DNA of 32,571 nt, taken from Anaerolineales bacterium (lineage in GTDB: Bacteria > Chloroflexota > Anaerolineae > Anaerolineales > UBA11858). How positions within the stretch are numbered: the first letter of the stretch is position 1; every line of letters starts with the position of its first letter. The DNA is taken from the NCBI GenBank assembly GCA_021108255.1, contig JAIORG010000020.1, forward strand, positions 1 to 32,571, given 5' to 3'. This document shows positions 30,055 to 31,709 of the stretch, piece after piece. Both the position numbers and the translations under genes were made by a program. The notes beneath the pieces were generated by a model, which ran no database searches, was not told the origin of the DNA, and saw only the letters and a list, made by a program, of their open reading frames with translations.

Positions 30055-30128
30055 GGGCGCGTAGCTCAGTTGGTTAGAGCGCACGGTTCACATCCGTGAG
30101 GTCGATGGTTCGAGTCCATTCGCGCCCA
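30055..30128 (+). tRNA. tRNA-Val (anticodon CAC)
   Basis: A complete cloverleaf: acceptor GGGCGCG (30055-30061) pairs with CGCGCCC (30121-30127) with discriminator A; D stem GCTC/GAGC; anticodon stem CACGG/CCGTG around TTCACAT with anticodon CAC at 30089-30091; T stem GATGG/CCATT around TTCGAGT. CCA is not encoded. It reads the valine codon GUG. Its 3' end is duplicated at 31682-31709. Confidence 0.95.
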
Positions 30129-30132
30129 CAAG

Positions 30133-30163
30133 AATCCGCTCTTTATTACAAGGAGCGGATTTT
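30133..30163 (+). terminator. terminator of the tRNA-Val gene
   Basis: AATCCGCTC (30133-30141) pairs with GAGCGGATT (30153-30161) over nine bases, followed by a short T run. Confidence 0.75.
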
Positions 30164-30269
30164 CCTTACCAAAGTTCTTAATGTTATACTTCAAAACAGA
30201 CCGATATCACATCATCGAGAAAAACTTTCCAACATACAAAATAGCTTTTAAGCACTATGGATTTTAGAG

Positions 30270-31103
30270 ATGAAATTTCAGCGAAAAGTAAAAACGGCAA
30301 TTAAAATATTAATCAATAACGGCATAATTGAATTATTCAATTCAATGAAAGGATTTGTGAGCAATAGGGTTGGAGGGTATCGACCAGATGAAGCAATGAT
30401 CGCTTTCAAAGCATTAATGGTTGATGCAGATACTGGGGTAATGATTGATGTTGGCGCACATTATGGGAAAACATTGGCTAAATTTGCAGAAAATAATTGG
30501 CAAGTGTTTGCATTTGAACCAGATTCTAAAAACCGCGAAAGGCTTATTTGGTCATACGGTGATCTTGAAAATGTAGTAATCGATCATCGAGCAGTATCAG
30601 ATCGGAATCAAGATAAAGCCACTATATATAGGAGCAGCATATCCACCGGGTTCAGCAGCCTTTCACCTCTCCATTCAAGTCATCAACCTGGAAATGAGGT
30701 GTCAGTAATTACCTTAGAGACTTTTTTTATAGAGCAGGGATTATACGAAAAAGAAGTAAGCTTTATTAAGATTGATACGGAAGGATACGATCTCCACGTT
30801 CTTAAAGGTATTCCTTGGACCAAAGTATCACCAAAGTTGATATTATGTGAATTTGGAGATATTAAAACTTCCACACTTGGGTATACTTTTCACGATTTGG
30901 CTAATTATCTTATTGACCAGGGCTATAAACTTATTGTTTCAGAATGGTATCCATTAAAGGATTACGGTATCCCGGCCGACTGGATCCGTTTTTGCACCTA
31001 TCCTTGCAAACTGAAATATCCAAAATCTTGGGGAAATATCTTTGCAACAAATGATGCTAATCTCTATCAATCTTTGTTGGAGATATGCATTATTAATCAC
31101 TGA
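30270..31103 (+). CDS. FkbM-family SAM-dependent methyltransferase
   Basis: This 277-residue protein is a class I methyltransferase of the FkbM type, which O-methylates sugars or glycolipids in surface polysaccharides and natural products. Motif I is MIDVGAHYGK (58-67), followed by VFAFEPDSKNRERL, a central AVSDRNQDKATIY, and the family hallmark FIKIDTEGYDLHVLKGI near 164-180. The ATG at 30270 lacks a strong ribosome-binding site. The gene is visibly richer in A+T than the surroundings and sits between the tRNA-Val gene and a duplicated tRNA 3' end, next to a broken polysaccharide-polymerase fragment, which points to horizontal acquisition. Confidence 0.88.
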   Translation: MKFQRKVKTAIKILINNGIIELFNSMKGFVSNRVGGYRPDEAMIAFKALMVDADTGVMIDVGAHYGKTLAKFAENNWQVFAFEPDSKNRERLIWSYGDLENVVIDHRAVSDRNQDKATIYRSSISTGFSSLSPLHSSHQPGNEVSVITLETFFIEQGLYEKEVSFIKIDTEGYDLHVLKGIPWTKVSPKLILCEFGDIKTSTLGYTFHDLANYLIDQGYKLIVSEWYPLKDYGIPADWIRFCTYPCKLKYPKSWGNIFATNDANLYQSLLEICIINH

Positions 31104-31149
31104 TGGTAAAAATATTACATCGTAAAAAATATCAGAAGCTAAATGTTAA

Positions 31150-31581
31150 AGTGGTGGTCCAATATATTCCGATTTGGAATATAGATACCCCGTGCAAAAA
31201 GGAAATCAAATTTCCAAGATAGAATGGCTCAAATAGCGGCTAGACCTCAATCGGGCAACTTTGTTGCTTGGTTTGTATGGACCAACGATCTCGGGAGTTG
31301 TTCAAACTTATCATCATCTCTTTGAGTCCTATGTCAATAAAAACTTCATTGGGCTGCACTCATTCATATTACAGTCAATTTTTGATATAGGATATGTTGG
31401 ACTACTGTTGGCCTTGATAATGATATTTTCAATGATCAAAGCCGCGGCAAAAATTCTTCAAACCACAGACAATAAAACTGAACCAATGATGGCTATTGGC
31501 CTTTTGATATATGCTTTACTGTTAGGTAGTGTTTCCGTAATTCCTGGTATTTATATCCACGAACTTTTCTATTTCTCTTGA
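31150..31581 (+). pseudogene. C-terminal remnant of an O-antigen ligase/polymerase-like membrane protein
   Basis: From 31261 an open frame encodes about 106 residues with two hydrophobic spans and the pattern LHSFILQSIFDIGYVGLLLALIMIFSMI, which resembles the periplasmic loop and last spans of O-antigen ligases/Wzy-type polymerases. Reading the same frame upstream gives QISKIEWLK, an in-frame TAG at 31234-31236, then RLDLNRATLLLG, a continuous family-like stretch interrupted by that stop; frame is lost completely by about 31147. The N-terminal two thirds expected for this family are absent. It is best seen as a decayed gene in the A+T-rich insert. The family assignment is moderate only. Confidence 0.45.
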
Positions 31582-31681
31582 TCTGTATTTCTCTGATTTA
31601 GATTTCTCGTGAGTTAATGATCCATATAATTTATTCAATTCATTCATGGATATATTTAATTTATTAGACTCCATATTAGCC

Positions 31682-31709
31682 GGTTCGATTCAAGTCCATT
31701 CGCGCTCAC
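31682..31709 (+). other. duplicated tRNA-Val 3' end, probable att remnant
   Basis: AGTCCATTCGCGCTCAC (31693-31709) matches the tRNA-Val 3' end (30113-30129) at all but one base and in the same orientation, 1580 bp away. GGTTCGA of the T loop is also present just upstream (31682-31688), separated by a few extra bases. This is the expected scar of an element integrated into the 3' end of the tRNA gene. Confidence 0.65.

Follow-up and report, generated by a model that had tools for sequence, protein, structure and literature searches.

Broken polysaccharide genes between tRNA-Val(CAC) and a worn copy of its 3' end: a possible island remnant in an Anaerolineales genome

The stretch of DNA that we analysed (the window) is the whole of contig C21, 32,571 bp long, from a fragmented genome of an Anaerolineales bacterium (2.98 Mb in 298 contigs); the contig ends at position 32571, and 3' neighbours past that point are absent. 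Towards this end lies an intact tRNA-Val(CAC) gene, followed in the same orientation by its terminator hairpin, an FkbM-type methyltransferase gene, the remnant of a Wzy-like O-antigen polymerase/ligase, a worn second copy of the tRNA 3' end, and a further, weaker terminator-like hairpin (Table 1). An A+T-rich gap separates the Wzy-like fragment from the copy. The end of the copy is 1.58 kb from the end of the tRNA, and the DNA between the two amounts to 1.56 kb. A first-pass annotation, made from the letters alone, had described this row as an intact tRNA gene, about 1.5 kb of A+T-rich DNA with an FkbM methyltransferase and a polymerase fragment, no integrase, and a 17-bp same-orientation copy of the tRNA 3' end with one mismatch; all of these descriptions are borne out by the searches reported below, and its coordinates are correct to within a few bases. 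On the other side of the tRNA, at 29936-30054, the window lacks about 2.1 kb with two genes that in the sister genome G005 lie between a cyclase gene and tRNA-Val, so that this side, too, appears to have been rearranged.

Table 1. Features at the tRNA-Val(CAC) locus, in window coordinates unless another locus is named
Feature	Position	Strand	Evidence
tRNA-Val(CAC), intact	30055..30129	+	ARAGORN; Rfam RF00005, 70.7 bits
Terminator hairpin of the tRNA, genus-type	30131..30163	+	Fold -18.3 kcal/mol; likeness to same-genus terminators
FkbM-type methyltransferase gene, 277 aa, apparently intact	30270..31103	+	PF05050, E 5.2e-19, whole domain; 48% to G005 homologue
O-antigen polymerase/ligase (Wzy-like), C-terminal fragment, 5' part lost	31270..31572	+	tblastn to contig C37 homologue
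Worn second copy of tRNA-Val 3' end, tRNA positions 55-75, 2 mismatches	31689..31709	+	Alignment; core search
Weaker terminator-like hairpin, then T run, behind the copy	31723..31746	+	Fold -10.9 kcal/mol
Tandem arrays of 93-96-bp units in relatives	L176:9065-9364; L190 and L044, directly behind tRNA-Val		

We could rule out that the second copy is a chance match. The core AGTCCATTCGCGC occurs twice in the window, both times on the + strand (30113-30125 and 31693-31705), against a chance expectation of 0.01. When the tRNA is aligned locally with the sequence that follows it, the top match spans 21 bp with two mismatches, of which the 17 bp noted earlier are the inner part, and it scores 32, as compared with a maximum of 23 in 40 shuffles. 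For the last 18 nt of the tRNA, 16/18 are matched at the copy and 13/18 at the next best place in the window on either strand. If a 5-nt insertion in the T loop is allowed, the match would extend leftwards by GGTTCGA (read by eye). The copy thus starts in the T loop, finishes at the tRNA 3' end, and lies downstream of the tRNA in the same orientation; it is derived from the tRNA. A second intact tRNA gene at 31.7 kb was considered and ruled out: both ARAGORN and Rfam find a single tRNA in the window or its end. It is the tRNA origin of the copy that these alignments support; as an att site, the copy is a candidate.

Between tRNA and copy, the FkbM ORF covers the entire PF05050 profile (1-173 of 173; 69.4 bits against a gathering score of 22.7), with nothing unusual for the family. 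Its distribution is sporadic: a homologue at 48% is present in 1 of 40 other relatives' genomes (G005, of the same genus), where it adjoins ORFs that resemble sugar-nucleotide epimerases/dehydratases (identities read from the ORF starts); homologues at 45% are present in 2 of 395 other genomes of the class; and the best match elsewhere in its own genome reaches only 28%. A phage or plasmid origin for this gene was dropped, as no relative was found in phages, plasmids or viral contigs. The Wzy-like ORF corresponds to residues 382-482 of a 503-aa protein encoded on contig C37 of the same genome (48% identity, E 1e-24), although its Pfam match taken by itself falls below the threshold (Wzy_C, E 0.094). 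It is a true fragment, in which only the C-terminal fifth of the homologue remains. The list of ORFs for 27000-32571 and Pfam searches of both ORFs inside the insert gave no integrase ORF between the tRNA and the copy.

The G+C content of 30130-31688 is 0.355, versus 0.469 in the contig up to the tRNA, within which none of 570 segments of equal size is as low. The first-pass annotation had advised this comparison of inside with outside; the insert is indeed lower, but a foreign delivery does not follow. Low G+C as proof of import was dropped once the genome's own polysaccharide cluster (contig C37) measured 0.40 and its own Wzy gene 0.37: because that cluster is similarly A+T-rich, low G+C is no evidence of delivery, and the composition of the insert fits this organism's polysaccharide genes as well as it fits imported DNA. 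The related suggestion that cell-surface polysaccharide genes were delivered here stands in so far as the contents are broken polysaccharide genes; the delivery itself is, from their patchy distribution, plausible.

At 78 loci from the order we searched up to 9 kb to either side of tRNA-Val(CAC) for further copies of the tRNA that score at least 30. The input was 80 sequences (the window, 19 of the 20 loci of a first set, and 60 loci chosen without regard to copies); L040, in which the tRNA is cut by the contig end, and L051, which has Ns inside, yielded no readable CAC tRNA and were left out, and L054 is also out. Less than 60 bp is available downstream at 4/78 loci and upstream at 1/78, leaving 74 and 77 that could be searched. 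Downstream same-strand copies that reach the tRNA 3' end are present at 11/74 loci, while the control configurations contain none (downstream on the opposite strand, 0/74; upstream, 0/77 and 0/77). Two of the first 20 loci (G011 and G033) had been picked after their second copies were already seen; among the loci chosen without knowledge of copies, 7 of the 58 searchable ones have a downstream 3'-end copy. When all matches scoring at least 30 are counted, internal ones included, there are 13 downstream on the same strand, none downstream on the opposite strand, and 4 and 1 upstream. Upstream on the same strand, all four matches come from the interior of the tRNA and stop short of its 5' end. 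Since random tandem duplication would also leave pieces reaching the 5' end upstream, their absence counts in favour of an island.

The pattern is less frequent at other tRNAs. In the window's own genome, 1/31 has a downstream 3'-end copy within a flank of about 1.5 kb (the 31 include tRNA-Val(CAC), whose copy lies just beyond that flank), and in G112, G045 and G206 the figure is 1/40 with flanks of up to 9 kb; the comparison of 11/78 for tRNA-Val(CAC) with 2/71 for other tRNAs gives p 0.019 against what is a rough control. An excess of contig ends shortly after the tRNA might have pointed to population-level variation; this idea was rejected, as 10/78 lie within 500 bp downstream and 3 upstream, which is not significant (p 0.09). 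Furthermore, relatives have copies at 43-100 bp from the tRNA with no intervening gene, and for this reason a copy alone is no proof of an island end. The first-pass annotation had held that a second copy in relatives without the insert would count against an island; this applies in part, for such copies do occur in the order, though outside the window's own genus.

Another key observation to come from these loci is that a tyrosine integrase (PF00589) lies directly behind tRNA-Val, in the same orientation, at 3/78 of them (G040, G117 and G174). The three integrases share 31-33% mutual identity, and that of G040 is broken by an in-frame stop. To this extent relatives do carry the larger, integrase-bearing islands that had been proposed as a check. 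At G174 the row runs from the tRNA through a hairpin without a T run, the integrase and further DNA to a 15-bp 3' copy at 2760, whose start lies in the T-loop region, with a proper terminator behind it; this is the textbook island, with the terminator displaced to the far end. In the genus of G027 and G040, tRNA-Val is about 1.5-1.6 kb from tRNA-Thr(CGT) in G027, G112 and G137, as against 3.4 kb in G040, with its integrase, which amounts to an emptier versus a fuller site, though not to the base; in other members the distance is 2.3-2.9 kb and no integrase is detected by profile. The claim that integrases of genomic islands use tRNA 3' ends holds for this site across the order (integrases at 3/78 loci; copies at 11/74 versus none in the controls), and the 3' side of tRNA-Val(CAC) is a real and recurrent insertion site in Anaerolineales.

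A second type of element is marked by ATCATTTCATA, which precedes copies that start in the anticodon arm. With up to two mismatches this pattern is found in 5/400 genomes (reversed control, 0), and in 3/5 (G011, G045 and G298) it stands before a full 3'-end copy behind tRNA-Val; the match in G688 has only partial tRNA sequence, and that in G166 is not a copy of this kind. The identical ATCATTTCATA precedes tRNA 3' copies in two families (L147, L052; G045, G011), and there are variants in G298 and G688. We interpret ATCATTTCATA as the probable end of an element type shared between families; viral contigs contain no att-like patterns. G045 seems to be rich in tRNA relics: at L246 and L248, pieces of tRNA-Gly(CCC) and tRNA-Ala from around the anticodon arm are repeated on the same strand behind other tRNAs. 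Long hairpins also occur directly behind tRNA-Val (L140, L141, L177, L179, L045 and L053), in which one arm repeats part of the anticodon region of the tRNA (e.g., CCGTGAGGTC) and the other arm is its complement; at L045 one of these is situated between the tRNA and an integrase.

The first-pass annotation had also looked to relatives for an empty tRNA-Val site; none was found in same-genus genomes with matching DNA on both sides, and the contig of the closest sister stops 192 bp behind its tRNA. We compared both window terminators with the first 45 nt behind the tRNA at other loci, using 67 loci outside the genus as a reference. The proximal terminator scores 12.5, 9.5 and 12 against G002, G005 and G007, respectively, and 0/67 outside loci reach 9.5; the corresponding scores for the distal terminator are 5.5, 1.5 and 7.5, and are equalled by 14, 64 and 4 of the 67. 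There is no such proximal effect for G004 and G006, also of the same genus (18 and 40 of the 67 score as high). The proximal terminator is thus genus-type for 3/5 same-genus genomes, and the distal one is not. We relied on this 67-locus comparison; shuffle-based p-values with longer flanks fell below 0.05 in 1/6 same-genus proximal comparisons. The window's two terminators score 8.5 against each other, and 2/67 outside loci are as high against the distal one. In addition, 31600-31759 can be aligned collinearly with the tRNA's promoter, 3' end and terminator; with a fixed core, the score of 28.5 corresponds to p 0.0045, but the promoter-like stretch alone lacks significance (p 0.08-0.13).

These data bear directly on how the copy arose. 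The product of an integrase would place element DNA at the intact tRNA and the native terminator after the copy, so the genus-type proximal terminator speaks against a plain attL/attR pair. This terminator, the likeness of the two terminators and the collinear alignment together mean that a worn duplication of the tRNA end and its terminator would explain the window equally well. The island reading would be rescued if the element itself had brought in a terminator of the same-genus type, which may be the case.

Duplications are indeed found at such sites. Behind tRNA-Val we observed arrays of 3.1 copies of a 96-bp unit in G270, 2.3 copies of 93 bp in G112, and 2.1 copies of 94 bp in G027; each unit consists of a degenerate tRNA 3' half, a small inserted hairpin and a terminator, and the tRNA halves in G112 and G027 begin at the anticodon loop. 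Searched against Rfam, the G270 array gave nothing but tRNA above the gathering score. Within 16 genomes of its genus, the G270 unit occurs only at the G270 locus, plus a weak match beside the tRNA-Val of G206; because it is confined to tRNA-Val loci there, the arrays seem to be products of local amplification rather than mobile elements. G282 has two intact tRNA-Val(CAC) genes in tandem. In the window's own genome, on contig C4 (L234:4899-6309), a tRNA-Gly(CCC) is followed 1.28 kb downstream by a 57-bp same-orientation copy of its 3' end; the copy has a small insertion towards its 5' side, and a single ORF of 277 aa separates it from the tRNA. This repeat runs past the tRNA into the end of a flanking response-regulator gene (named from its sequence). 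As an att core would not extend beyond the tRNA, the tRNA-Gly(CCC) case looks like a duplication with a gene in between.

We consider that the best single explanation for the window, to which we would give about an even chance, is an island remnant: a small integrative element of the kind known as cis-mobilizable elements (CIMEs). A tyrosine recombinase, since lost or else supplied by another element, would have acted at the T loop of tRNA-Val(CAC), so that the intact tRNA and a displaced 3' fragment came to lie at opposite ends of the insert. Shrinkage and decay of the element would have followed, such that the FkbM gene survived, the polysaccharide polymerase was cut to its C-terminus, and the distal tRNA fragment gathered mismatches. 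This account builds on what the sequences show, namely the tRNA and its copy, the genes present, the decayed state of the polymerase and the use of this site by integrase-bearing elements in relatives; we infer the integrase origin of this particular copy, the loss of the integrase, a donor, and any effect at the cell surface. We keep an island remnant as the best explanation chiefly because of the one-sided pattern across the order, in which copies reach only the 3' end, and because integrases lie at the same site. The elements marked by ATCATTTCATA and the sporadic distribution of the FkbM gene also favour it; against it count, besides the proximal terminator, the missing integrase, the small size, the failure to find an empty site in same-genus genomes, the A+T-richness shared with the resident polysaccharide cluster, and the searches of phages, plasmids and viral contigs that gave no FkbM relative and, for viral contigs, no att-like pattern. 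The island proposed in the first-pass annotation is to this extent supported in part.

Comparison with described islands shows both likeness and difference. By the Islander definition (PMC4383910), a tRNA 3' fragment lies downstream in the same orientation and reaches the gene end, and an integrase gene lies inside an island of 2-200 kb; the integrases use anticodon-loop and T-loop subsites. The window resembles these islands in its intact tRNA, candidate island DNA and same-orientation downstream 3' fragment that starts on the T-loop side (tRNA positions 55-75 at 31689-31709). It differs in that its 1.58 kb falls short of the 2-kb limit, in the absence of an integrase, and in the genus-type terminator that still adjoins the intact tRNA (PMC4383910). 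With no integrase and less than 2 kb, it is not an Islander-type island by definition. Within the same phylum, Chloroflexota, the ssrA islands of Dehalococcoides (PMC3146451) have direct repeats of about 20 bp that begin in the T loop of a tRNA-like gene and continue to its 3' end; one site is used repeatedly, and 15/31 of the islands are without an integration module. The window is like them in the extent of its repeats, the repeated use of its site and the missing integration module. Those islands, however, have ssrA as target, the serine recombinase DsiB, a cargo rich in reductive dehalogenases and a larger size (PMC3146451); here the target is tRNA-Val, no recombinase ORF lies inside, and relatives of the window carry tyrosine integrases. 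By analogy, the window would work like the cis-mobilizable remnants proposed in that source for the Dehalococcoides ssrA islands: in both, att-like repeats flank DNA without recombination genes, although in the window the repeats are only putative att sites and the distal one is worn (PMC3146451).

The strongest competitor, somewhat less probable in our judgement though to be taken seriously, is that the distal copy is a worn partial or whole tandem duplication of tRNA-Val and its terminator, and that polysaccharide DNA came between the two later by ordinary or illegitimate recombination. The native-like proximal terminator and its resemblance to the distal one argue for this, as do the collinearity of 31600-31759, the units of 3' half and terminator in G270, G112 and G027 (in the G270 genus, only at tRNA-Val loci), the tandem pair in G282, and the tRNA-Gly(CCC) repeat that, unlike an att core, continues into its flank. 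Yet a duplication requires two events, the promoter-like stretch is not significant by itself, and 5' fragments upstream should be as frequent as 3' fragments downstream, when not one reaches the 5' end in 77 loci. Rather unlikely, in our estimation, is a broader proposition: that tRNA-Val(CAC) of Anaerolineales has on its 3' side a long-lived site at which integrase-borne insertion combines with local tandem amplification, where displaced 3' halves with their terminators multiply to form short arrays, acquire small inserted hairpins and serve as landing repeats that catch passing genes such as FkbM, the window being one such repeat pair with trapped polysaccharide genes. We think it improbable that the DNA between the copies is a resident broken end of the genome's own polysaccharide cluster, moved by rearrangement and unrelated to the tRNA copy: the Wzy-like fragment is homologous to a gene of that cluster with matching G+C (0.367 and 0.369), and the cyclase-gene side is rearranged as well, but a resident gene copied recently would show far more than 48% identity, and the FkbM gene has only its 28% match elsewhere in the genome.

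The window, then, offers one more decayed example of insertion at tRNA genes, a well-known phenomenon, and is an ordinary genome scar. It illustrates that correct placement and orientation of a tRNA 3' copy cannot alone decide between integrase and duplication. More curious than this scar are the local tandem arrays of degenerate tRNA-Val 3' halves that appear in several relatives. A limited literature search found no earlier report of a tRNA-Val(CAC) insertion site in Anaerolineae; our survey documents tRNA-Val(CAC) as a recurrent insertion site in Anaerolineales.
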